Source: a virus. Taken from it: a DNA stretch of 31,013 nt. The position numbers were made by a program, and so were the translations under genes. Positions 3 through 23,598 of the stretch are shown one piece after another. Numbering within the stretch: position 1 is the first letter of the stretch; every line of letters starts with the position of its first letter. Below the pieces are notes generated by a model. The model was not told the DNA's origin, did not search any database, and saw only the letters and a list, made by a program, of their open reading frames with translations. Where the stretch lies: IMG/VR virus record IMGVR_UViG_3300010401_000067, positions 1-31,013 of that record. One strand, given 5' to 3'.

Positions 3-3000
3 TGGGTATCGACACAAACAGGTACATACATTTTGCCGCGTATAAAAACAAATTCCGATGGTACTGCTTCACCGGTTCTTGATTTTATTGGAAGAAGAAG
101 TAACAATTTTGAATTACCTTCCAATTTCGTATTGGCTGGTTCCTCAGAAGAGCCAAATACAATCAATTCAACATCAGTTGTATTACAAAATCTTGCAGAC
201 GATTTGCAAATTCTCGCTGGATATAGCGATAGCAATTCAAAAGACATTACAGTTCCATGGAGAACACATAAACTTGGGCCGCAACGACTTTCTCCGGGTG
301 TTGGAGTATATAATCAATCTTTCGATAGTGATTCTCCATCAAGTCTGTGGTATTATTTCGATAAAAATCTTGAAGACCATCAACCACTAAGTGTTGTCTG
401 TGAAAAAAAATTACAGCCAAACGATGGAAGTAACAATGATGCATTTAGAGCTTATTGGGTATCTGAATTAAATTTAGATGGAAGTAAAAAGATAACAAAT
501 ACTGGATGGGTCGGTGGTTCTAATTTATTGTGGAGAGCTTCTACATCAGGTTCTTTATCTGCATCTTCCAATCAAATTTATGCACCAAATACATCACAGG
601 CAACATCAAATTGGCCGGGATATACTGCGCCAAACAATAATGGCGCATTAGATTTGTACTATGGTGTTACAGCAATTCTTCCTGCTGGTCGAGATTTACC
701 AAGCAACGAAAATCTTTTGCCTGACAATCAAAATGTCGGATATTTCTGCCCATTACTTGCGTATGCTGAATTTTATTACAATGAACTTGTTGGCACAAAA
801 ATAACTTTAAAACAAGTTTATCAGGGTTGTGTCGATGATAACGGATTGATGTTTAACATTGTTCCGGGTTTACATTGCCAGCAATTCATACATAACAAAC
901 TAAGAGATTTCAATGCTAGAGAAATTCAGATTGACCCCATTAATTGTATCACTACTGTAACATGGGTTGAAGTCTTTTATAACAATGCTGGAACTCCAGA
1001 TGGAAATCAATATATTGTTCCTCCTGTCAGTCAAATAAATGGTGCTGGAGCAAGTTCTAGTAATTCAGGAAATGGTGTTAATGGAACATTTTTGGGTAAT
1101 AGTGTTACTCCTGTCGATGGTCCATATATTAAACAATTTCCTCCTTCAACATTTTCAAACATTTTACAGCCATTAACTGGTGGTGTTACTGGAATTTCCT
1201 TCTATCAAAAAGACGATAGAAGCGATTTCATGAGCTTTAATGCTTCAACCTCTGCTCATCTTGCTTCCTTGTCGTCGGAAGGCTCCTACGTCACTGCTGG
1301 ACGTTTAGGTGCAGGTAATGTTCACTTCCCAAATACTGTTTTATCGACGTATGGAGATTTTTCTATTGATGGTCAGCGTTCTTTGACTGCTTCTACATCG
1401 AGCAACAATGTTAGTGCAACAGGAATTAGTAATTTATACGTTACATTAACTGGCAATACAAAGTTTACCGGTTTTACTGGTGGAACTCCGGGCAAATTTC
1501 TTGAAACGTATTTTGATGGTGCGTTTCAAGTTACTGTGGCAAATCAAAATGTTAATAGTATTGCTACTAATAGAATTATTACAAATACAGGCGGCGATAT
1601 TATTGTAGCAGGTCCAGCATTTTTCTCATTCATCTATGATAACAACGAACAACGCTGGATTGTAACAAGTTCACAAGCCGGAACGGGACGTTATAGTCCA
1701 TACTTTGTAGATGATACTGGATTGCCAACACGATATTCTAAAGTTGTAGGCGGTACACAAAGCAAAGATTCTATTGCAATAGGTGCAGGTGCTACGGCTT
1801 CCTTGACTTCTGCAATAGCAATGGGTTGGAATTCCACGGCAAGTGGTAGTTATTCTTTTGCAGTAAATGGCGGTTCCGCTCTTGCACCATATTCAATCGC
1901 ATTTGGAAATCTTAATTCTGTAAACGGAACAAGTTCGACAGGAAGTTCTGTTTTTGGAGGTAACAACAATGCAATTTCAGGTTCATTATATGCTTCCATT
2001 CTTGGTGGTGTCGATAATGTAGCAGGATTGTCGGCGGATGGAAGTTCTATTGTAGGCGGTCATCAAAATGTTATTGTTCAATCAGCAGATTCTATTATCG
2101 GCGGTGGAATTTTTAATAATATCGCTACTACAAATTATAGTGTTATTGCTGGTGGTGATACTAATAGTATATCAGCAAGTCTTGATTCGTTTATTGCTGC
2201 TGGTACGACAAACATAATCAATCATGTTGTTCATGGTTCTATTGTAGGCGGTTCTACCAATACATTATCCGGAACATCATACGGTTCTATTGTAGGCGGT
2301 AATTTTCATAATCTTATCAATTCCGATGGTGGCGGATTGATAGTAGGGTCGCAAAATACTTTATCAGGCGGAAATCTTTCGGTCATTGTAGGCGGTAATA
2401 ATAATACATTATCTGGCTCTTTTTACGCCTCCATACTTGGCGGACTCGACAATACAATAGCAAATTCGGATTATTCTACAATACTTGGTGGAAATGAAAA
2501 CATTGCAAGTGGTAATACCAGTATTGGAATAGTTGGTGGTTTCACCAATGTAATTCAAAATAGTGAAAATTCAACTGTTATTGGAGGAGAAGATGCATTT
2601 CTACTTACTTCTGTTGATTCTTGTATCATTGGTGGTTTGGATGATAGAATAACTACTTCAGACCAAAGTTTTATTGGAACAGGTACAAACAATCGAATCA
2701 CATTTAATGGAACATCTTTAAGTCGAACTGCCAATTCTGCGATACTTGGTGGAAATGCTAATTCTATTTCTGGTAGTAACAACGCAATTGTCCTTGGTGG
2801 TTTATCGAACTACATTGATTCTGCAGACGAATCATACATAATTGGTGGAGATTCAAATAAAGTTGTTGGACCTGCAAGAGCAGGAATAATAAATTCTACC
2901 TCATCAAGTGTGAGCGCATATTATTCAAACATCATTGGAGGCGCAAGCAATTTTCTTGAAACTGGTCACTATTCAAATATTCTTGGAGGATTTAATAACC

Positions 3001-3689
3001 AATTAGGCGTTAATGGAGCATTGATAACGAATGACCCATTTGGTGTAACTATTTTGGGTGGCAATTCTTTAACAGCAATTGGATACTATTCTATAAATTC
3101 TGGTGTTGGTAATATTACCTACGGATATGCACAAACTCGTTTAGGATATTTCGGTCAAACAGAATCTTTGCAATCTCAATCTGCTACAGGTGTTGGGGAT
3201 ATTCTTTTCGGAATTGGTAATGGTGGTGGATATGCTTCTCGTTCTGATGCTTTCAAAGTGAATAATTTGGGTGGTATCAGTATGACTTCTGCTACCGCTT
3301 CTTATTCTTATCATGTATCGAAGAATTTAGATGCAGCAAGCGTTGGTACACATGCAAATCCAATTGGTTCTTATTATGCTGACAATAACATTATTGCATG
3401 GGCTGATGTCAATGTTGGAGCATTTCCTCCGGGTCTTATAACTGTAAACGCATCGTTCAATATAAATTCGATAACTTCTGGTGGAGCAGGAACGACTATT
3501 CATACACTTCTTGGACCTACTCCGACAGACATTTGTATTACAGTAACTCCTAAACATGCTGCTGTTGGTCCAATACCATTGATTGCAACCGCAAATGGAT
3601 TGGGTGCTGTAATAATCTGGAATGCCGCAACATTGTTACCAGCAGTTGTTGCCTATGGATATTACATTACAGTAACAGGAAGAAAATAA
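3..3689 (+). CDS. Large tail fibre/adhesin with YadA-like beta-roll repeats (5' end off window)
   Basis: The frame is open from base 3, so the gene starts upstream of the window; the TTG at 33 is only the first possible internal start. The first third is a non-repetitive, beta-rich region. Around 1495-1680 there is a segment containing RIITNTGGDIIV and RWIVTSS that resembles a small domain often seen in fibre proteins. Next come two classical YadA-head style units (SIAIGAGATAS, SAIAMGWNSTA), then about 22 degenerate units of the type S-x-I-x-G-G-x-x-N-x-I up to about 3080. The end is a short hydrophobic C-terminal domain ending ITVTGRK. Left-handed beta-roll repeats of this kind form trimeric stalks in bacterial adhesins and phage fibres. 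I infer a receptor-binding fibre or distal tail spike. No chaperone or autocleavage (S74) motif was seen at the C-terminus. The family is fairly clear; the receptor is unknown. Confidence 0.8.
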   Translation, partial: WVSTQTGTYILPRIKTNSDGTASPVLDFIGRRSNNFELPSNFVLAGSSEEPNTINSTSVVLQNLADDLQILAGYSDSNSKDITVPWRTHKLGPQRLSPGVGVYNQSFDSDSPSSLWYYFDKNLEDHQPLSVVCEKKLQPNDGSNNDAFRAYWVSELNLDGSKKITNTGWVGGSNLLWRASTSGSLSASSNQIYAPNTSQATSNWPGYTAPNNNGALDLYYGVTAILPAGRDLPSNENLLPDNQNVGYFCPLLAYAEFYYNELVGTKITLKQVYQGCVDDNGLMFNIVPGLHCQQFIHNKLRDFNAREIQIDPINCITTVTWVEVFYNNAGTPDGNQYIVPPVSQINGAGASSSNSGNGVNGTFLGNSVTPVDGPYIKQFPPSTFSNILQPLTGGVTGISFYQKDDRSDFMSFNASTSAHLASLSSEGSYVTAGRLGAGNVHFPNTVLSTYGDFSIDGQRSLTASTSSNNVSATGISNLYVTLTGNTKFTGFTGGTPGKFLETYFDGAFQVTVANQNVNSIATNRIITNTGGDIIVAGPAFFSFIYDNNEQRWIVTSSQAGTGRYSPYFVDDTGLPTRYSKVVGGTQSKDSIAIGAGATASLTSAIAMGWNSTASGSYSFAVNGGSALAPYSIAFGNLNSVNGTSSTGSSVFGGNNNAISGSLYASILGGVDNVAGLSADGSSIVGGHQNVIVQSADSIIGGGIFNNIATTNYSVIAGGDTNSISASLDSFIAAGTTNIINHVVHGSIVGGSTNTLSGTSYGSIVGGNFHNLINSDGGGLIVGSQNTLSGGNLSVIVGGNNNTLSGSFYASILGGLDNTIANSDYSTILGGNENIASGNTSIGIVGGFTNVIQNSENSTVIGGEDAFLLTSVDSCIIGGLDDRITTSDQSFIGTGTNNRITFNGTSLSRTANSAILGGNANSISGSNNAIVLGGLSNYIDSADESYIIGGDSNKVVGPARAGIINSTSSSVSAYYSNIIGGASNFLETGHYSNILGGFNNQLGVNGALITNDPFGVTILGGNSLTAIGYYSINSGVGNITYGYAQTRLGYFGQTESLQSQSATGVGDILFGIGNGGGYASRSDAFKVNNLGGISMTSATASYSYHVSKNLDAASVGTHANPIGSYYADNNIIAWADVNVGAFPPGLITVNASFNINSITSGGAGTTIHTLLGPTPTDICITVTPKHAAVGPIPLIATANGLGAVIIWNAATLLPAVVAYGYYITVTGRK
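1765..3081 (+). repeat. Degenerate beta-roll repeat tract inside the fibre gene
   Basis: This coding tract holds about 22 units with the pattern S-x-I-x-G-G-x-x-N-x-I/L, for example GSIVGGSTNTLS and ASILGGLDNTIA, spaced roughly 14-20 residues apart. The DNA units are diverged and only protein-level periodicity is kept, so this is a structural protein repeat and not a recent DNA expansion. Confidence 0.8.
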
Positions 3690-3710
3690 AAAAGCCGGGA
3701 ATTTCCCGGC
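3684..3710 (-). terminator. Intrinsic terminator for the leftward operon
   Basis: GCCGGG-AATTT-CCCGGC forms a GC-rich hairpin at 3694-3710. On the minus strand it is followed by a run of T (the A-rich stretch 3684-3693 on the plus strand), so it is a good rho-independent terminator for the glycosyltransferase operon. On the plus strand there is no T-run after it, so termination of the fibre gene by this element is less certain. Confidence 0.75.
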
Positions 3711-3737
3711 CCTAAACAAGAGTGTACTGATTGCAGA

Positions 3738-4421
3738 TTACAAACCCATTCCAATCTGTAAAAGTTCTGCCATTTCTTTTAAATCGCACGCACTGCATTC
3801 CAAATGACTGCAATCACCCTTTTTGCAATCTTCGCATTCCAAATTAGGAACGCATGTTTTCAACAAACTGTGTCTTCCATGAAATCCAAAACTTCCGAGA
3901 TAACGATTGTATGTTGAATTCTTTGCGTATGAAAACCTACTTGCAACATCACATGGTGCAAAACGCATTCCTTCTCTCGTCAAAGAAAATCGAACATCTT
4001 GACAAATGTTTTTATCCTCTTGAATGTATGGGTAACAAGCTGGACTTACCGTTGCAAGCAATTGGCAAAGCCTTCTGCTACGCAGAGAAAATCCACCATT
4101 GCCGCAAACATCTTCAATCCAAGGACCACCAATATAATCATATTTCAAAAAATCATTCGTCCAAGCTTTCGGATTGATGATATAACCGTCCTGTTGAATG
4201 GTAAGAACGTGTGTCGTATAAAACCAATCTTTCAATTGATAAAGCATGAAAAGATTGTATGTCTCATACGATTTTACTTGTGGCACTTCTTTTTTTGTCA
4301 ATACTTTAACGTCGCCAAAATCACAAGCGCGCTTGCATATTTCAACAGCAATGTTTGTTTCGGTCAAATCATCTCCTGTATCGACCGCAAGCAATGTCAC
4401 GTTTGGAAGGAAAAGTTTCAT
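3738..4421 (-). CDS. DUF5672-family glycosyltransferase-like protein with Cys-rich tail
   Basis: The protein is 227 residues from the ATG at 4421, which overlaps the upstream stop as ATGA. A longer reading from a TTG at 4433 is possible but less likely. The core matches the DUF5672 pattern: an N-terminal LPNVTLLAVDT strand, YNLFMLYQLKDW, then HVLTIQQDGYIINPKAW, FLKYDYIGGPW, and GNGGFSLRSRRL. DUF5672 proteins are predicted GT-A-like glycosyltransferases found in saccharide gene clusters. An added C-terminal segment carries CEDC, then C-S-H-x2-C-S-A-C, a possible zinc site not expected in the core fold. It is the last gene of the leftward operon, directly convergent with the fibre gene. I infer a role in glycosylating a virion or host-surface component; the acceptor is unknown. 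Confidence 0.8.
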   Translation of the reverse strand: MKLFLPNVTLLAVDTGDDLTETNIAVEICKRACDFGDVKVLTKKEVPQVKSYETYNLFMLYQLKDWFYTTHVLTIQQDGYIINPKAWTNDFLKYDYIGGPWIEDVCGNGGFSLRSRRLCQLLATVSPACYPYIQEDKNICQDVRFSLTREGMRFAPCDVASRFSYAKNSTYNRYLGSFGFHGRHSLLKTCVPNLECEDCKKGDCSHLECSACDLKEMAELLQIGMGL

Positions 4422-4981
4422 TTGGGTAAACAAAAAATCATTCCGTCTTTAACTTCTACATTGTAATCTGGTAATGCAGACTCTATTTCATGAAGACGAG
4501 GCCATTGACTTTTATCGAAAGAATGTCGTGCAGTATTGTGTTCCCAATTGTATTCTGTAAACCATTCTGCATCATCAATAAGAATTATAGGAGGAATATT
4601 GAAGTTTGCATTGCGTATTGCTTCCAACTCTTTCAAAATGGGACATTGCCCATATTTTTCATCTAAAGCATTCTCGTATGGATTGCCCATATAGTGAGCA
4701 TCCAACCAAAACAAAACTTTATAGCGATTGAGAGGTGGAAGAATCTTGTTAAGAACATCAGGAGATGTACCATGATAAATCACTACATCTTTGTTTCCAA
4801 AATTGAGTCCTTGAAATCGGTCGGCAATTTCTTTGTTCTGTTCAATGCTTATGAATTTCTTTGCTATACCACGTCCAATTGCTTCAAACAAACTGCTACC
4901 ACCACCAAGGCCAGTTTCAATGAAAATATCAAAATCTTTCAATCCATAACCTTCTTCATTCCATAATACAAGTCCGCCCAT
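4418..4981 (-). CDS. Class I methyltransferase-like protein
   Basis: The protein has 187 residues from the ATG at 4981, which shares its A with the upstream stop (TAATG) and has a GGAGG ribosome site 8 bases before it. An upstream ATG at 4999 is the alternative. Near the N-terminus FIETGLGGGSS looks like the glycine-rich SAM loop, followed by an acidic end of strand 2 (ISIEQN). Later motifs are HGTSPDVL, LFWLDAHY, CPILKELEAI and IILIDDAEWF. This resembles FkbM/CmcI-like Rossmann proteins found beside sugar biosynthesis genes. It is translationally coupled to the DUF5672 gene, so the two probably act together. It could modify the sugar added by the glycosyltransferase; it might also be a non-methylating Rossmann enzyme. 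Confidence 0.65.
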   Translation of the reverse strand: MGGLVLWNEEGYGLKDFDIFIETGLGGGSSLFEAIGRGIAKKFISIEQNKEIADRFQGLNFGNKDVVIYHGTSPDVLNKILPPLNRYKVLFWLDAHYMGNPYENALDEKYGQCPILKELEAIRNANFNIPPIILIDDAEWFTEYNWEHNTARHSFDKSQWPRLHEIESALPDYNVEVKDGMIFCLPK

Positions 4982-5271
4982 TATTCTGTCCTCCAGCATT
5001 TATCAGTTGAAATCAATTCGAAATTGTAACCATTATATTGTAATTCATTCACTTCATTGAATGGTGTACATTTGAAACATTGATGCCTCTCCGTACAATC
5101 TTCACAAAAATAGGTCTTTTTGTCTTTGCATTGATAACAACGAGTAATATCAAGAACTCTCGTCTGATGATACCAATTGTAAAATGCCTGTTCGTTCTCG
5201 TAAGTGTCTACAATAAGACCTGTGTTATTGTAGAATTCAGCTTCTAATTGTTTTCGTTCTGTATGTGTCAT
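4981..5271 (-). CDS. Small Cys-rich, probably zinc-binding protein
   Basis: This 96-residue protein has a cluster C-x2-C-x7-C-x2-C-x4-H-x-C-x2-C (RCYQCKDKK, FCEDCTERHQCFKC). The spacing suggests two zinc ions in a treble-clef or B-box-like fold. The N-terminus is hydrophilic and helical, and no signal peptide or membrane segment is seen. It is the gene before the methyltransferase-like gene in the leftward operon, with stop and start sharing one base. No family is recognised with confidence. It could bind nucleic acid or protein, or act as an accessory to the modifying enzymes next to it. A similar cysteine arrangement occurs in the protein at 6107-6367. Confidence 0.65.
   Translation of the reverse strand: MTHTERKQLEAEFYNNTGLIVDTYENEQAFYNWYHQTRVLDITRCYQCKDKKTYFCEDCTERHQCFKCTPFNEVNELQYNGYNFELISTDKCWRTE
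4990..4994 (-). promoter_or_regulatory. Shine-Dalgarno site deciding the methyltransferase-like start
   Basis: GGAGG on the minus strand lies 8 bases before the ATG at 4981. It is one of very few recognisable Shine-Dalgarno sites in the window. It favours 4981 over the in-frame ATG at 4999. Confidence 0.6.
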
Positions 5272-5286
5272 TTTGTTTTCAAATTG

Positions 5287-5362
5287 TGGACCGTGTGAGA
5301 ATCGAACTCACCAAACAAGAATATTGCAAGTATTCTTCGCCAGCCTTGGTACATGACAGCCC
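5287..5362 (-). tRNA. tRNA-Ala-like gene, anticodon TGC
   Basis: Read on the minus strand, a 7-bp acceptor pairs GGGCTGT with ACGGTCC, including a G3:U70 wobble pair, the main identity element of tRNA-Ala, followed by A73. The T arm is GTGAG-TTCGATT-CTCAC. The anticodon arm is GAATA-CTTGCAA-TATTC, giving anticodon TGC after U33. The D arm is weak (T-G, G-C, T-G pairs only), base 8 is C rather than U, and the variable region is 7 bases, so it may be a divergent or decayed phage tRNA. CCA is not encoded. It lies inside the leftward operon. A tRNA-Cys reading (GCA) would require a slipped loop with broken stem pairs. Confidence 0.6.
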
Positions 5363-6075: not shown

Positions 6076-6106
6076 AAATATATCCCTCAAAATATTGAAC
6101 GCACTT

Positions 6107-6367
6107 ATGCCAATGTATCCTAATCGCCCACTTTGTTTTACATGCAATATAGAAGCAGATATTTTTTGTTATGTTTGTGTCAGATTCATTTGTGAAGGAC
6201 ATAAATGTGAACACGAAGAATATTTCTCAAAGAATCAAGTAGACTCCAAAAAGGTCCATTATCAATATTTGGAGTCACAACGAAGTGGAGCACCAACACC
6301 ATCAGAAAAGAAAATGTGGAGAAAAAAGATTGAAGAGTTTGTCTTGGAAAGTGAATACGTTATTTAA
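6107..6367 (+). CDS. Small B-box-like zinc-finger protein
   Basis: This 86-residue protein starts at the ATG at 6107; an in-frame TTG at 6095 is the alternative. The N-terminal half carries C-x2-C-x7-C-x2-C-x5-C-x2-H-x2-C-x-H (CFTCN, FCYVCVRFICEGHKCEH), the spacing of a B-box-like finger binding two zinc ions. The C-terminal half is charged and helical (SEKKMWRKKIEEFVLE). It is the first gene of the rightward early block and is followed by a strong terminator, so it is probably transcribed alone from the regulated divergent promoter. It may be a small regulatory or protein-binding factor. The cysteine layout resembles that of the 4981-5271 product, which suggests related folds. Confidence 0.65.
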   Translation: MPMYPNRPLCFTCNIEADIFCYVCVRFICEGHKCEHEEYFSKNQVDSKKVHYQYLESQRSGAPTPSEKKMWRKKIEEFVLESEYVI

Positions 6368-6526: not shown

Positions 6527-6593
6527 ATTGTCTTATTGTGCGATTTTTCTGCCCGGAGCATATTTAGAATGCCAGCAAATCATATTTAAAGAG

Positions 6594-8123
6594 ATGACAA
6601 AACCCGATATTACTCCTGAGTATTTTCAATCAATCGCTCCAAAAGAGAGCAATAGTTTTTTTTATAAAACCTATATAAGAATCCAAAAAACAGGATTCAA
6701 TCAACATGATACAAATTGTTTGTTGGATGGCATAGTTGTCAACAAGTTATCCACAATGAAGGCAATAGAATTTGTTTTATCCAAAGTTGGAGAAAATTCA
6801 ATCGAGCCTTTGCAAATGTCATATCTCGACCCAACAACAAAAAATAGAGTTGGACTTCGAGAAATTTTTTCAAACACATATTTTGGTCAATTGTTATTTG
6901 CAGCATTGCTGACTAGAAAAGATTGGGAATATAGCAAAGGTCATTGCTATAAATATGGTTGGGGACCATTCATGCCTTTTTTATTGAATTGGTATCAAGA
7001 ACAATCCAAATCATTGAAGAACAAAGGCCGAGTGTTTGCAAAAAATGTTGAAGAATTAAATGAAAGACAATGTTATGCAGCAGCCTTAAAAAATGAAGAT
7101 ACTATTTTATTAGGAGGAAGAGTTTACACAATAAAAGACAATCGTTATTATAACGCAATGGTGATGATGCCAAAGATAATGCGTTTTCATATTGAACGTT
7201 CAAACTTTGGATTTGATGATATCTACGACTATGATATTGTCAGTGCGATTGCAACGCTGACGGCTCAACATGCATTAAAGTTCAATCCTTCCCTGAATCA
7301 AAAAAAGACGATTGAATATTCAATCAACAAAAAACCTTTTATTGATTTGTTGGTTAACAAATATGGTTTGACTTCCCAACATGCAAAAAAAGTTTATACA
7401 GGAATATTCAATGGTGCCAAAGTAGGATACAAAAAACTTGACTTGGATTTTCATACGGCAATGCTGCTAAAAAACAATCCTATTATTATTGCGCTTCAAA
7501 ATGAATTTGATTTACGGCATGAAACATTTGTTGCTAACAACGCATACGATAAAAAAGGAAGTCCAAGCGAACAACATTCAGCACTTTATTTTGCTTTAGA
7601 GCGCAAAACAATGGCGGTTGTTTTGATGCGATTAGAACAGATAAAAGAAAAATATGGTTTGGTTCATGATGGATTTTATTGTCAAACATCTGATTTAGCT
7701 TCAATGCTGGAACGTGATATTAAAGAATTAATTGGATTTGATGTGAAAATTAAAGAGGAAAAAGTTGCGCCCAATGCTTTCGATGACGTAAAAGGTTTAG
7801 GCGTTTTGCCGCTTGTGGCGGCAACGCCAAAGGAAATTAAGAAGGGGGAAGAGAGTTACAGTTCAGCAAACTTTAGTATTCATTATGATGTAGAATCGAC
7901 GATTGCAACTCAAAAACACAATATTTCACAAACTCCCATTCTTAAAGAAAATGTTGGCTGCGCCCAAAGCGCAAAGCCAACAAATAATTTGGATTGGATT
8001 ATAACTTGGAAGCCCAGACAATCTGTCAAGGCTGCAAAAATTAAAGAAAAAATAGAGACTGCGGAGAAAAAAGAGAGACAAATGAAAGCAATAGCACGTT
8101 CTAAACGAAATAAAAGAAAATAA
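6594..8123 (+). CDS. Divergent right-hand polymerase-like replication protein
   Basis: This is a 509-residue protein from the ATG at 6594; a TTG at 6528 in frame would add 22 residues. Three spaced motifs suggest a single-subunit polymerase palm: motif A IYDYDIVSA (Asp214), motif B AKKVYTGIFNGAKVGY (Lys265/266, Asn273-Gly274), and motif C KYGLVHDGFYC (His358-Asp359), with the helix LERKTMAVVLMRL between B and C. Motif C resembles the His-Asp of family A DNA polymerases and T7-type RNA polymerases. Motif A resembles the family B form. There is no obvious 3'-5' exonuclease domain. The C-terminal 90 residues are low complexity and end in a Lys/Arg-rich tail. No other polymerase, helicase or primase is visible, so I infer a role in phage replication or transcription. 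The assignment rests on motif pattern only. Confidence 0.5.
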   Translation: MTKPDITPEYFQSIAPKESNSFFYKTYIRIQKTGFNQHDTNCLLDGIVVNKLSTMKAIEFVLSKVGENSIEPLQMSYLDPTTKNRVGLREIFSNTYFGQLLFAALLTRKDWEYSKGHCYKYGWGPFMPFLLNWYQEQSKSLKNKGRVFAKNVEELNERQCYAAALKNEDTILLGGRVYTIKDNRYYNAMVMMPKIMRFHIERSNFGFDDIYDYDIVSAIATLTAQHALKFNPSLNQKKTIEYSINKKPFIDLLVNKYGLTSQHAKKVYTGIFNGAKVGYKKLDLDFHTAMLLKNNPIIIALQNEFDLRHETFVANNAYDKKGSPSEQHSALYFALERKTMAVVLMRLEQIKEKYGLVHDGFYCQTSDLASMLERDIKELIGFDVKIKEEKVAPNAFDDVKGLGVLPLVAATPKEIKKGEESYSSANFSIHYDVESTIATQKHNISQTPILKENVGCAQSAKPTNNLDWIITWKPRQSVKAAKIKEKIETAEKKERQMKAIARSKRNKRK

Positions 8124-8125
8124 CT

Positions 8126-8314
8126 ATGTCATTCAAACCATTACCACTAAAACCTATTAAAAATTACGTATCTCCTATAACGAAGCCATTTGAAGTTGAA
8201 GAAGAGGCTGTCAAGGAATTTACAACATATCTTCGTCAATATCTAAAGAAAGAACTTTCAGCAGACCAGAAATATTTGATGTTAGAACAATCTTTACCAG
8301 TTCCAGTTCAATGA
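8126..8314 (+). CDS. Small hypothetical protein
   Basis: This 62-residue protein starts 3 bases after the polymerase-like gene and overlaps the next gene by ATGA, so the three form one translationally linked unit. The N-terminus is Pro-rich (PLPLKPIKNYVSP), followed by an amphipathic acidic helix (EVEEEAVKEFTTYLRQYLKK). It is probably a small accessory to replication or to the neighbouring DNA-binding protein. No family is recognised. Confidence 0.65.
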   Translation: MSFKPLPLKPIKNYVSPITKPFEVEEEAVKEFTTYLRQYLKKELSADQKYLMLEQSLPVPVQ

Positions 8315-8691
8315 GCAGTAACAGAAAACCTCGCAAATTCACAAGTGAAGAAGACAATTTAATCCATAAGATGTGGGTTGAAGGCGATAGTATTGTTTCC
8401 ATGGCTATTGTTCTTTGTTGTTCAAATGAATCTCTTAAATCTCATTTGGAGACTCTTGATTTACCAAATCGCCCTCAAAAAAGATGGAGAGAACGTGAAT
8501 TCACAATTGATGAGGACAACACAATTATTTCGATGTATAATTCCGGAGAACCAATTAGCAAAATCATAAAGGCAGTCAAAGCCCGAGATGAAAATGTTGT
8601 AAATGAAATCAAGAAACTTGGTTTACCATTAAGAAAAACAATGCAAAAACGAAGAAAGAACGGAGTTAATTTGGCAACTAAACCGTTCTAA
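8311..8691 (+). CDS. Tandem helix-turn-helix DNA-binding protein
   Basis: This 126-residue basic protein is made of two copies of a Myb/GcrA-like helical unit, at about residues 9-53 and 63-108. The copies share the pattern F-T-x2-E-D-N-x-I-x2-M-x3-G-x2-I near the start and L-x-L-P-x-R at the end (FTSEEDNLIHKM and FTIDEDNTIISM; LDLPNR and LGLPLR). The linker and C-terminus are rich in Arg and Lys (RWRERE, MQKRRKNG). Each unit should form a trihelical DNA-binding fold, so the protein could read a repeated or inverted site. It is the last gene of the early unit, overlapping the previous gene by 4 bases. It may be a phage transcription regulator or replication accessory. Confidence 0.65.
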   Translation: MSSNRKPRKFTSEEDNLIHKMWVEGDSIVSMAIVLCCSNESLKSHLETLDLPNRPQKRWREREFTIDEDNTIISMYNSGEPISKIIKAVKARDENVVNEIKKLGLPLRKTMQKRRKNGVNLATKPF

Positions 8692-8724: not shown

Positions 8725-9285
8725 TTACCAAGAATATTGAGACTGCCATCTGAGAACGTTTTTAAGGTAGCTTACAGGCGCTTTAGGACCATTGTACATT
8801 GAAATAGCCCTGTTGAGCGTCTTATATTGTTTGAGATAGCCAGCGAAGAATTTGCCCCACAATTCGAAATGTTCTTTCCATGTAATTTCGCTCAAGAATT
8901 TCTTTTTACAACCTAATGCTCTAATGTTTGTTCCGAGCAATTGAAATGGACCCCATGAGCTTGCTTCCTGAAATCTCTCGACATCAAATGGTATAGAATC
9001 TATTAGTTCCGGATTGTCTTTGAAAAACTTTGTTGTCATGTCGAATACTAATTTGTAGTGTCTCTCACCAATATTAAAGAAGCCAGATTCTACTCTTGGA
9101 AAAGCAGTAATAATACGACCGGAGTTTTCCTGTAGATTAAAGGCTGCTGCAATCCCGTGAGGTAAATGATATTTCACCTCAGTTGCATGAGCTACATTGA
9201 TAACTTCTGCTGTCCATGCGCTTGATTGGGCGTTTACAATGATAGGACTGACGAGAAGAAAGAAGAGTGCTAATATAGTTTTCAT
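8725..9285 (-). CDS. Secreted lysozyme/transglycosylase-like endolysin
   Basis: The 186-residue protein has a Sec signal peptide (MKTILALFFLLVSPIIVNA, likely cut near residue 19-20). The mature part has a lysozyme-like pattern: HGIAAAFNLQENSG, RVESGFFNIGE with candidate catalytic Glu66, and SSWGPFQLLGTNIRALG (residues 109-125), matching the Ser-x-Gly-x-x-Gln segment of SLT/lysozyme-fold enzymes. Then comes FFAGYLKQYKTLNRAISMYNG, like the C-terminal helices of that fold. I infer that it cleaves the peptidoglycan glycan strand. Glu53 is an alternative catalytic residue. The signal peptide means it could reach the periplasm without a classical pore-forming holin. It is monocistronic, antisense and convergent with the early unit. 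Confidence 0.7.
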   Translation of the reverse strand: MKTILALFFLLVSPIIVNAQSSAWTAEVINVAHATEVKYHLPHGIAAAFNLQENSGRIITAFPRVESGFFNIGERHYKLVFDMTTKFFKDNPELIDSIPFDVERFQEASSWGPFQLLGTNIRALGCKKKFLSEITWKEHFELWGKFFAGYLKQYKTLNRAISMYNGPKAPVSYLKNVLRWQSQYSW

Positions 9286-14047: not shown

Positions 14048-14659
14048 TCAAGCAGTTAAGCGCATTTGATTCTTAATCCAATGTGTAGCTTCAACCATTT
14101 CTTTTGGCGTCATCGGAACATATCCAATTGAATTTTCCGTACGCCATTTATTGAGGGCTACAACAATCATATAGACATTTGCTCCTGTCTTCGTGAACAT
14201 AGCGATTACCTTGTGATTTTCATCGTATGTTCTTGCTCTGCCTTCAATGGAATTTCTCGACCTTTGTTTTATTCCTTTGATTTGCATTGCACTATTTTTA
14301 TTGACTGTTCGATTGTTGTTGTTGATGCATCGCGATTCACGCTCATTTCTTCCGTGTCTTAGATTCTCTTTTCTACAATCGCTTGGATTGCGATTTTTAT
14401 GGTCTACAACAAATTCAGACGGTATGATTAGTTTGTGTAGATAAAGACAATCATAGCGTCTTCCCGGTTTAGATGATGGAACGTTTGTTGTAATATATCC
14501 AAGTCGTTGATACGCCCAACGATGATTCTTTATTTTATCGACATCTTCTGCGTCAATAATGGCGACTTTATGCCCAAATGTTGGAGATTCAATATGGATA
14601 TAAGCTAACTTACCTTCAATTGTTATTTCGTTTCGTGCGATATTTCTTGTTTGTTTCAT
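14048..14659 (-). CDS. Free-standing HNH homing endonuclease-like protein
   Basis: This 203-residue basic protein lies on the strand opposite to the packaging genes. The N-terminal part (VDKIKNHRWAYQRLGYITT) matches the segment that precedes HNH domains in phage homing enzymes. The HNH core is YLHKLI, then VVDHKNRNPSDCRKENLR, with the His-Asp-His and Asn positions in place. The C-terminal part (IKGIKQRSRNSIEGRARTYD) looks like an AP2-type DNA-binding segment. Such enzymes cut a target DNA and spread by repair. The gene sits between the membrane-protein gene and the portal gene. No intron or intein is seen, so it is an intergenic selfish insertion. Confidence 0.85.
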   Translation of the reverse strand: MKQTRNIARNEITIEGKLAYIHIESPTFGHKVAIIDAEDVDKIKNHRWAYQRLGYITTNVPSSKPGRRYDCLYLHKLIIPSEFVVDHKNRNPSDCRKENLRHGRNERESRCINNNNRTVNKNSAMQIKGIKQRSRNSIEGRARTYDENHKVIAMFTKTGANVYMIVVALNKWRTENSIGYVPMTPKEMVEATHWIKNQMRLTA

Positions 14660-21502: not shown

Positions 21503-21883
21503 ATGGAACAATTAGAACAAGAAAACTTTATTTCATCAATACACCAAGCATTGAATACTTATCCGGTAATGGTTTATAATGGTCAAGAGTTTCCTGTGTC
21601 CAAACCATTGCCACAAGCTTTGACGCATATCAGTGAAGATGTTAGGGCTGTAAAAAAGAATGTTATCACTGTGACGGATACGGTGAATGAACAGAATTTA
21701 TTGTTACAAGGATTGAAACGTCGAAGACAAATCAAACAATATTTTTTGAAAATGATTGTGTCCATTGATGAATCCTTTAAAGTTTCAAAGGTTTACAAAT
21801 TGATTGTAGGTATAGTAGGTGCGTATGTAGCATACAATGGCATCGTCAAAATCATTGAAGAAATAACAAAATGGCTATCTTAA
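21503..21883 (+). CDS. Coiled-coil protein with C-terminal membrane helix, XhlA/holin-like
   Basis: This protein has 126 residues from the ATG at 21503; a TTG at 21470 is in frame. The N-terminal 90 residues are polar and helical, with a heptad-like stretch (ISEDVRAVKKNVITVTDTV). A basic segment RRRQIKQ precedes a single hydrophobic helix at about residues 98-117 (LIVGIVGAYVAYNGIVKII). A coiled coil followed by a membrane helix is the layout of XhlA-type holin accessories. It overlaps the fibre gene by 13 bases. A role as a fibre-associated membrane protein cannot be excluded. Confidence 0.6.
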   Translation: MEQLEQENFISSIHQALNTYPVMVYNGQEFPVSKPLPQALTHISEDVRAVKKNVITVTDTVNEQNLLLQGLKRRRQIKQYFLKMIVSIDESFKVSKVYKLIVGIVGAYVAYNGIVKIIEEITKWLS

Positions 21884-23598
21884 TTTTCGACCGAGTTCTT
21901 GAAATTTCAACGAGCACTGGAACAGGAAATATGGTTCTTGCTGGTGCTGTTGCATCATTTCAAACTTTTGGCAGCAAATTAACGAATGGACAACAAACTC
22001 CTTATTTCATTGTCGGAAGTACAACCAATGTTTGGGAAACTGGTATCGCAACATATAATACTGGGGCAAATTCAATTACAAGAACAACGGTCAAAGCCAA
22101 TTCTTCAGGAACTCTCGTTCCATTGAATTTAGCTTCAGATACTTACAACATTGGAATTGATATTCCGTCTTTTCTTGCACAAGAAATAGTTGACATTTAC
22201 AATAGTGCTTCTAATAGCGTTTTAACATGGACTGGCACAAGTGTTACTGGTGTAACTCCCGGTTCGGCAAATAATGTATTGACAAGTGTTGGAGGTGTTT
22301 GGACTTCTGCTGCTCCTTCAATCGGCAATAGTGGTTGGTCAGGGATAAGTGGTCAAGGAACATCTGGTATCAGTGGTAATTTTCAAAGCGGATGGAGTGG
22401 TATTAGTGGTAACTTAGGCACGAGCGGTTGGAGCGGCGTATCTGGCAATTCAGGTTGGTCGGGCGTTAGCGGCAAAGCGGATTCCGGATGGTCTGGAATT
22501 TCAGGTACCTTCCAATCAGGTTGGAGCGGTATTAGTGGAAACTTTCAGAGTGGATGGTCAGGCATATCAGGAAACTTTCAATCCGGCTGGAGCGGTATAT
22601 CCGGGAATTCGGGTCGTTCCGGCATTAGTGGTAACAGCGGTTGGTCTGGCATAAGCGGTCAAGGAACATCAGGCATCTCTGGAGCTATTGGTGGAGTATC
22701 GACATCCGGTATTTCTGGTAACAGCGGTTGGAGCGGCATATCTGGTAATTTTCAATCCGGTTGGTCTGGTATCAGTGGTAATTTTCAAAGTGGATGGTCT
22801 GGAATTTCAGGCAACTTCCAAAGCGGTTGGTCTGGCATAAGCGGCAATAGTGGTTGGAGCGGTATTAGTGGCAATTCAACATCTGGAATTAGTGGGGCTA
22901 TTGGAGGAGTATCGACATCCGGTATCTCTGGAAATTCAGGTTGGAGTGGTATCAGTGGCAACTTCCAAAGTGGATGGTCCGGAATCTCTGGCAATTTTCA
23001 GAGTGGCTGGAGCGGTATATCAGGAAACTTTCAATCCGGCTGGAGTGGTATCAGTGGTAATTTTCAAAGCGGTTGGTCAGGCATAAGCGGTACAAATGGT
23101 ACTATCGGAGTAAATGGAACATCAGGTATCAGTGGTAATAGTGGTTGGAGTGGTATCAGCGGCAATTTTCAAAGTGGATGGTCTGGAATATCTGGTAATT
23201 TCCAAAGCGGCTGGTCCGGTGTAAGCGGTAACTTTCAGAGTGGTTGGAGTGGTATATCAGGTCGAACTACTATAAACGTTTTCGCTCGTGGTGCTGACGT
23301 TTTATCTCCAGTTGCACCTGTCAATGTTATTGTATGGAGAGCAGGTGTAGCTTCAACAGTAACAAACGTAAGAGGTTACAGTGCGTCGTCAACAGGAGCT
23401 ACAATTAATGCAAGAAAAAATGGGACACTATCTCATCTTGCAACAAACTTAGATGTAACAACTGCTGATACGTGGATAGATGGAGGAACAGTACAAAACA
23501 CATCTTATTCCATTGGTGACAAGCTTGAAGTACAATTAATTTCGCTGACCGGAACACCACAACAAGTAGCAATTCAAGTAGACTATACGATTCCTTAA
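21871..23598 (+). CDS. Phage fibre with Trp/Gly/Ser repeat shaft
   Basis: This 575-residue protein has three parts. Residues 1-110 match a common phage fibre N-terminus (DRVLEISTSTGTGNMVLAGA, FQTFGSKLTNGQQTPYFIV, then WETGIATY and SITRTTVKANSSGT), which probably attaches to the virion. Residues 154-464 are a repeat shaft with about 23 copies of SGWSGISG, mostly in an 11-residue unit SGWSGISGNFQ and partly as Gly-x-Ser triplets like collagen. Residues 465-575 are a beta-rich head (TINVFARGADVLSPV, ATINARKNGTLSH, KLEVQLISLTG) that could bind a receptor. The gene lies between the tube candidate and the tape measure, which is not the usual fibre location. A fibre on the tail or capsid surface is likely. 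Confidence 0.8.
   Translation: MAILIFDRVLEISTSTGTGNMVLAGAVASFQTFGSKLTNGQQTPYFIVGSTTNVWETGIATYNTGANSITRTTVKANSSGTLVPLNLASDTYNIGIDIPSFLAQEIVDIYNSASNSVLTWTGTSVTGVTPGSANNVLTSVGGVWTSAAPSIGNSGWSGISGQGTSGISGNFQSGWSGISGNLGTSGWSGVSGNSGWSGVSGKADSGWSGISGTFQSGWSGISGNFQSGWSGISGNFQSGWSGISGNSGRSGISGNSGWSGISGQGTSGISGAIGGVSTSGISGNSGWSGISGNFQSGWSGISGNFQSGWSGISGNFQSGWSGISGNSGWSGISGNSTSGISGAIGGVSTSGISGNSGWSGISGNFQSGWSGISGNFQSGWSGISGNFQSGWSGISGNFQSGWSGISGTNGTIGVNGTSGISGNSGWSGISGNFQSGWSGISGNFQSGWSGVSGNFQSGWSGISGRTTINVFARGADVLSPVAPVNVIVWRAGVASTVTNVRGYSASSTGATINARKNGTLSHLATNLDVTTADTWIDGGTVQNTSYSIGDKLEVQLISLTGTPQQVAIQVDYTIP
22330..23262 (+). repeat. Coding repeat array SGWSGISG(NFQ)
   Basis: The 933-base tract encodes about 23 SGWSGISG or SGWSGVSG units. 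Most are 33-base units and some are 27-base triplet-type units. Codons vary freely between units (AGT, AGC, TCA, TCT, TCC for Ser; GGT, GGC, GGA for Gly), so the DNA repeats are diverged while the peptide is kept. A larger block around GAIGGVSTSGISG is duplicated 213 bases (71 codons) apart, with an identical 20-base core at 22693-22712 and 22906-22925. Confidence 0.9.

Follow-up and report, generated by a model that had tools for sequence, protein, structure and literature searches.

How the DNA of many small environmental tailed phages is replicated is unexplained, and no replication gene is recognised in them. The locus studied here, P0001, raises the question of what kind of enzyme such a phage might carry in place of one. 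It lies in a linear IMG/VR virus record of 31,013 bases, possibly a fragment, which is referred to here as the window. The frame is open and encodes 509 amino acids when counted from an ATG; a TTG at 6528 is an alternative start that would add 22 amino acids. A preliminary description had taken the product for a lone, divergent right-hand polymerase with mixed family A/B motifs. We therefore asked whether P0001 is a polymerase, to which family it belongs, and whether it is likely to replicate phage DNA (features in Table 1).

Table 1. Features of the P0001 gene, its product and its immediate surroundings.
Feature	Positions	Strand	Basis
Terminator-like hairpin, bidirectional, upstream of the P0001 gene	6373..6400	.	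weak: 2 found vs 1.4 expected in shuffles
P0001, divergent superfamily A polymerase (predicted), 509 aa	6594..8123	+	ORF, profile match, alignment, fold model
Two long helices, residues 128-143 and 149-171, at the position of the PolI thumb (predicted)	6975..7106	+	pLDDT about 54-64 (medium confidence) in model m0a1e4a344593
Hairpin segment with R184 and R197 (DNRYYNAMVMMPKIMR)	7119..7193	+	alignment; residues 168-184 modelled with low confidence
Palm and fingers core, residues about 195-395 (predicted)	7176..7778	+	pLDDT mostly 80-95; family A leading PDB matches
Motif A strand IYDYDIVSA, residues 210-215, catalytic D214 at 7233-7235	7221..7238	+	D214 in 26/26 rows; strand in model
Fingers helices and motif B, residues 246-276	7329..7421	+	alignment, model
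E336-bearing helix and the hairpin of motif C, LVHDGFYC, with D359 at 7668-7670	7596..7682	+	alignment, model
Basic C-terminal tail, residues about 468-509	7995..8120	+	sequence; helix in single-sequence model; outside MSA-based model
62 aa ORF	8126..8314	+	ORF list
126 aa ORF	8311..8691	+	ORF list, PHROGs

P0001 and the two small ORFs behind it probably form a single transcript, since the first of these starts 2 nt after the P0001 stop and the second overlaps the stop of the first (ATGA). The 62 aa ORF had no PHROG match, and the 126 aa ORF weakly matched phage DNA-binding/regulator families (phrog_1303, E=8e-6; phrog_323, E=4.5e-5). A PHROGs scan of the neighbouring ORFs placed terminase, portal, protease, capsid and tape-measure genes in the right part of the contig. 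Several other genes of the window were also noted: a tRNA-Ala (TGC) gene close to the polymerase module (5286-5362, minus strand), flanked by two small Cys-rich proteins upstream of the polymerase operon (4981-5271, minus; 6095-6367, plus) with similar CxxC zinc-finger-like patterns; a gene opposing the operon (8725-9285, minus) with a signal-peptide-like start and a weak phage endolysin match (phrog_2860, E=3e-4); an HNH endonuclease (14048-14659, phrog_4578 and phrog_99), likely a homing endonuclease, on the opposite strand amid the packaging genes; a 1218 aa protein (33-3689, plus) with many IGGxxNxxxxS repeats, like a YadA-like head or tail-spike repeat region; and a 575 aa protein (21871-23598, plus), probably a tail fibre, that consists of collagen-like repeats of the GISGNSGWSGISG type and whose GC content (0.456) is above that of the rest of the contig.

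Used alone as a query, P0001 found no relative in Pfam, the PHROGs, the PDB, or the phage, plasmid, viral and genome contig sets; phrog_21040 appeared only at E=0.038. A DNA pattern on its motif C (E...M...HDG) gave 119 stretches, mostly chance matches or unrelated proteins, in which the only real relative was L031 (518 aa), with its duplicate. A tblastn search with L031 led to a 767 aa Desulfovibrio phage protein (22% over 86%, E=0.09), this protein led to a Polaromonas plasmid protein (E=3e-9), and the latter to a second Polaromonas, one E. coli and one Synechocystis plasmid protein, as well as to a protein of Gordonia phage Gustav annotated as DNA polymerase I (E=0.1). A second pattern scan returned L185, whose GRIYYKGPNLQNVPKIVRRAAL..YDI resembles a PolI block that we take to read GR...PNLQNIP..R.AF..DYSQIELR. 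A third pattern, K-x-A-[ILV]-[TS]-A-x-G-[FY]-G-A, gave 31 stretches, nearly all of them members. P0001 was linked in this way to the Desulfovibrio phage protein, to both Polaromonas plasmid proteins and to some 25 proteins of IMG/VR phages; scans of 26 members against Pfam and NCBIfam gave no relevant match. No row of the alignment diverges more than P0001, which is 13-19% identical to the aligned relatives.

Other routes to relatives were unproductive. With the terminase as an anchor for sister phages, the best phage matches were 26-32% identical and had no usable synteny; two alignment-based scans (A1 and A6) gave no confirmed relative. Weak tblastn matches in Vibrio phages 1.259.O and 1.155.O, a 735 kb megaphage, MT836435, Synechococcus phage ACG-2014f and an E. 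coli IncY plasmid were taken as chance because the motifs are missing from the genes or ORFs concerned, or these belong to different kinds. The profile of the 26-row alignment, run against PDB sequences, hit GGA1 only, a chance helical match.

The non-IMG/VR relatives lie in various settings. Plasmids pW9NP1 and pH8NP1 of glacier Polaromonas carry the polymerase relative together with RepA, ParA and a recombinase, and the two proteins (WP_181374945, WP_181377809) are annotated as “Clp protease N-terminal domain-containing” and “hypothetical”. They have the same motif set as P0001; unlike P0001, they reside on small RepA plasmids, and their motif C reads QHDGF after QGVE. In Desulfovibrio phage SRB7757 (142 kb, an unannotated record) the 767 aa relative, at 2146-4449, carries a long extension at its C-terminus and, around residue 175, weakly matches an HTH. 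Near a DUF2339 gene, the large E. coli plasmids pF16EC0470-1 and pBone4_5 encode a polymerase-like protein that is also related; in pBone4_5 this protein is unannotated and its matches are split over two ORFs.

Because the walk to these relatives had started from a P0001 motif, homology was tested with a profile of members reached by tblastn, none of them by the P0001 pattern: both Polaromonas proteins together with that of the Desulfovibrio phage. This profile matched P0001 at E=1.7e-7 (among about 5005 sequences; the best of 5000 P0001 shuffles reached 0.27) in one domain, residues 207 to 394, spanning motifs A to C. In a set of nine sequences, blastp of P0001 against WP_181374945 gave 24% over 217 residues (E=2.6e-5). 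By hhalign, the plasmid-type profile matched P0001 (P=95.8 over 202 columns) and also phage PolA (P=95.4 over 173 columns), with column-shuffled and reversed PolA controls at P <=0.4. P0001 alone had no significant match to PolA models (hhalign P=1.2), nor to Pfam DNA_pol_A (PF00476) at the curated cut-off. The large phage-dominated family profile gave P0001 a poorer score (E=0.065 among these roughly 5005 sequences, within the shuffle range), so P0001 is either closer to the plasmid/Desulfovibrio type or simply far out. In the alignment with Gustav DNA polymerase I, the GR..LQ..P segment, the motif A Asp and the motif B K...YG are paired; in the phage-family alignment, the HD of motif C is paired as well. 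Kinship of P0001 with PolI thus appears detectable from sequence, indirectly via the plasmid relatives, and we consider it very probable that P0001 is a family A polymerase.

The predicted fold agrees with this assignment. An AlphaFold model of the single sequence (pLDDT 35) was discarded, and the alignment of 26 rows including P0001, 24 of which extend to motif C, gave residues about 200-395 at pLDDT ~90. As that alignment holds the relatives, the model is partly the family's model; the tie of P0001 to the family rests on the independent profile test. The top 20 Foldseek matches in the PDB were all family A DNA polymerases (Klenow, E=3.1e-5), the outcome of a check that the preliminary description had proposed. 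VIA-align superposed P0001 residues 118-393 on Klenow 538-923 (Z=12.3, rmsd 3.9, 260 residues), and matches in a viral structure library included replication proteins of Zamilon virus and Qinghai Lake virophage. In the model, D214 lies on the strand of residues 210-215, D359 at the turn of the hairpin 354-357/360-363, and helices 246-272 form the fingers; from the Klenow match, the motif A strand is expected to be adjacent to the motif C hairpin. The palm and fingers are accordingly modelled as a family A fold.

All three motifs of the preliminary description, IYDYDIVSA with D214, AKKVYTGIFNGAKVGY (motif B, residues 264-279) and LVHDGFYC with D359, are where it had put them and in the right order; conserved in up to 26 aligned rows, they exceed what chance would give. 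Its view of a right-hand polymerase with D214 and D359 as the catalytic pair is borne out by the matches to family A palm and fingers (profile, Foldseek, VIA-align) and by the conservation of the two residues (26/26 and 24/24 rows). K265, T269, G274, A275 and R197 are likewise invariant in all 26 rows, and E336 and H358, with D359, in the 24 that reach motif C. K265 and G274, nine residues on, correspond to the O-helix Lys and Gly of PolI (K...YG), having been aligned to Gustav PolI via the relatives. The hairpin segment of P0001 aligns with GRxYY..LQN..K.VR of the relatives and GR...LQxxP of PolI; its Arg is one column off in MAFFT (R183/R184), so that the exact residue is uncertain. P0001 departs from the other rows in having Ile at position 250 (Arg in 25/26 rows) and FNGA where they have GFGA; four residues before K265 it has S261, a position that is L/V/E/I in most relatives. 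The basic tail that had been described is present and, in line with the claimed lack of an exonuclease domain, no 3'-5' exonuclease signature was seen; residues 1-125 have no confident model. The enzyme class and active site predicted for P0001 are, on homology and fold, well supported.

The family B half of the earlier assignment did not hold: profile, alignment and fold all indicate superfamily A only. The D-x-x-S-A appearance of motif A is this group's form of the PolI motif A (D-[LIM]-x-[AST]-[AS]-[VI]). There was no PF00136 match, and family B chains stood far down the fold list (TM about 0.2, rmsd 17-20).

With the DNA polymerase I family (PF00476; Klenow, Gustav PolI), P0001 has in common the palm/fingers fold, the motif A and C aspartates, the His before the motif C Asp, the O-helix Lys and the GR..LQ..P hairpin. 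It differs from PolI in lacking a recognisable exonuclease domain and a PF00476 match, in a motif B that ends in FNGA and not xYG, and in motif C, which reads HDG/S/A in the family and not HDE. The motif A Asp pairs with the D of DWSQIE in Gustav PolI. Five residues past this Asp, PolI has a steric-gate Glu (which we take to be E710 in E. coli) that excludes ribonucleotides; the position is I219 in P0001, V/I in 25/26 rows and His in the plasmid proteins. The PolI Arg four residues before the O-helix Lys, presumably R754, is lost in P0001 (S261). Since neither is kept, the sequence suggests, as a prediction, that P0001 discriminates less against ribonucleotides.

Three published kinds of polymerase come close. 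TV-Pol, which includes virophage polymerases (Iyer et al. 2008, PMC2579912), is like P0001 a minimal, stand-alone superfamily A polymerase of mobile elements or small viruses without a nuclease, and the virophage replication proteins among the viral-library structural matches fit this likeness. However, the RxxxK motif of the TV-Pol fingers is absent from P0001 (S261 at the position four before K265). The β-hairpin with an absolutely conserved Arg is seen in P0001 by alignment only (R184 one column off; R197 in all rows), the thumb of two antiparallel helices may correspond to the two helices modelled at pLDDT about 54-64, and the D5-like helicase that is frequent, though not strictly defining, as a TV-Pol fusion or neighbour has no D5_N counterpart in the 26 P0001-family records, which may be fragments. 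CcPol-MP and the PolA-SSB primases are minimal family A polymerases of mobile elements (PMC7581432, PMC10061031); by published description, CcPol resembles P0001 as a mobile-element family A polymerase without an exonuclease, whereas next to P0001 no SSB partner or helicase was recognised, only small downstream ORFs. Among the divergent phage polymerases divPolA1/2 (PMC11348598), divPolA2 of barbaviruses and vibriophages (phrog_4756) is uncharacterised and, at about 430 aa, combines a palm with an unrelated N-terminus, as P0001 does. The profile of P0001 relatives matched that of divPolA2 (P=85% over 188 columns), while P0001 itself had no phrog_4756 match (hhalign P=0.3%). Unlike P0001, divPolA2 was described in larger phages alongside a regular polymerase, and its member AUR84708 has YDFKAFE and FDE against YDYDIVS and HDG in P0001. 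Because RxxxK is lacking and the divPolA2 profile is not matched, we file P0001 only as superfamily A and under neither group; judged by the published traits of TV-Pol, it would stand apart from that family. The “undescribed branch” of the preliminary description is therefore only partly new: no family of Pfam, the PHROGs or NCBIfam covers P0001, but similar kinds had already been published (TV-Pol, CcPol, divPolA2).

The claim that P0001 stands alone held for the four Pfam families that it covers here. DnaB_C, D5_N and DNA_pol_A were found in none of 26 member records, the 31 kb record of P0001 included, and DNA_pol_B (PF00136) in none of 19, while control genomes responded; a PHROGs scan of the 20 ORFs neighbouring P0001 showed no recognised replication enzyme. 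Exactly one copy of the family was present in 19/19 records searched; P0001 and the other members are part of the profile, so that their matches are given by construction, but the single copy is not. These 19 records are 20-48 kb long, the other seven are shorter, and since they may be fragments, the picture of P0001 as the only replication gene could be incomplete; nor does the lack of a match amount to absence of the gene. By our reading of translations, structural or packaging genes and small ORFs adjoin several members; on pW9NP1 the polymerase relative ends 10 nt before repA. Being the only DNA polymerase found in about 25 other small environmental phages, the relatives of P0001 probably start or carry out DNA copying there. 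For P0001 itself, a role in replication, judged from this context, is about an even call.

What else might P0001 be? It may be a primase-polymerase that starts chains alone or with a small ssDNA-binding partner, in the manner of CcPol with MP, in origin-specific priming. Binding to MP enables priming by CcPol, likewise a pared-down family A enzyme from a mobile element (PMC7581432); prim-pol activity was predicted for the TV-Pols (PMC2579912); the P0001 record showed no primase gene; and the Polaromonas relative adjoins repA. However, no OB-fold partner was recognised, the two downstream ORFs being unlike MP, and we hold this reading to be possible but somewhat less than an even bet. That P0001 is instead a repair or accessory polymerase (translesion, recombination), dispensable for replication as proposed for divPolA2, seems unlikely: divPolA2 does occur in variable neighbourhoods of phages with another replicase (PMC11348598), and many small tailed phages rely on host enzymes alone, but the P0001 record and 18 related records contain no second DNA polymerase and one copy each.

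Loss of the Glu gate, together with HDG/S/A in place of HDE, would also suit a family A derivative that makes RNA, either as a phage RNA polymerase or as a primer-RNA polymerase, like the T7 and mitochondrial enzymes, an option that the divPolA2 authors kept for their own protein (PMC11348598). We think it quite unlikely for P0001, as the leading PDB matches are DNA polymerases and the N-terminal part is small for promoter binding; hhalign against a single T7 RNA polymerase sequence gave P 0.4-0.6, a value that excludes nothing. An inactive remnant, or a non-polymerase with chance motifs, might be suspected from the extreme divergence of P0001, its missing R250 and the lack of any single-sequence match. 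This is highly improbable, given the retention of catalytic and structural residues, an intact frame of 509 codons, and homology and fold evidence for family A.

Hence, we favour, with good though not full confidence, a divergent, exonuclease-less superfamily A polymerase that is most likely the phage's own early-acting replication polymerase. It would have thumb-like helices, an Arg-bearing hairpin and an RRM-type palm in which D214 and D359 bind metal, and its fingers insert would carry K265, equivalent to the O-helix Lys of PolI. Such an enzyme would act early in replication, in primer synthesis and/or first extension: it would extend primers on phage DNA and perhaps make them, a priming activity that we propose only tentatively, while the host would provide helicase, ligase and bulk synthesis. 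That P0001 is catalytically active, which template and nucleotides it uses and what it does for the phage are here predictions from sequence and model. More speculative, and in our opinion rather doubtful, is the broader idea that many small tailed phages have a member of an unnamed, widespread superfamily A branch as their only replication enzyme: a primase-polymerase made of one protein, with sugar choice relaxed for want of the Glu gate, which would start phage DNA synthesis without any helicase or primase of the phage.

The family as a whole is spread over small tailed phages and small plasmids. Its members, including about 25 IMG/VR phage proteins, are family A polymerases overlooked by Pfam and NCBIfam, and therefore a concrete candidate gene for a replicase or primase is now at hand in these phages. 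The missing Glu gate of P0001 leads to a direct prediction on rNTP use. Together with TV-Pol, CcPol and divPolA, the P0001 family adds to the evidence that a minimal core of PolI is used time and again in mobile elements.
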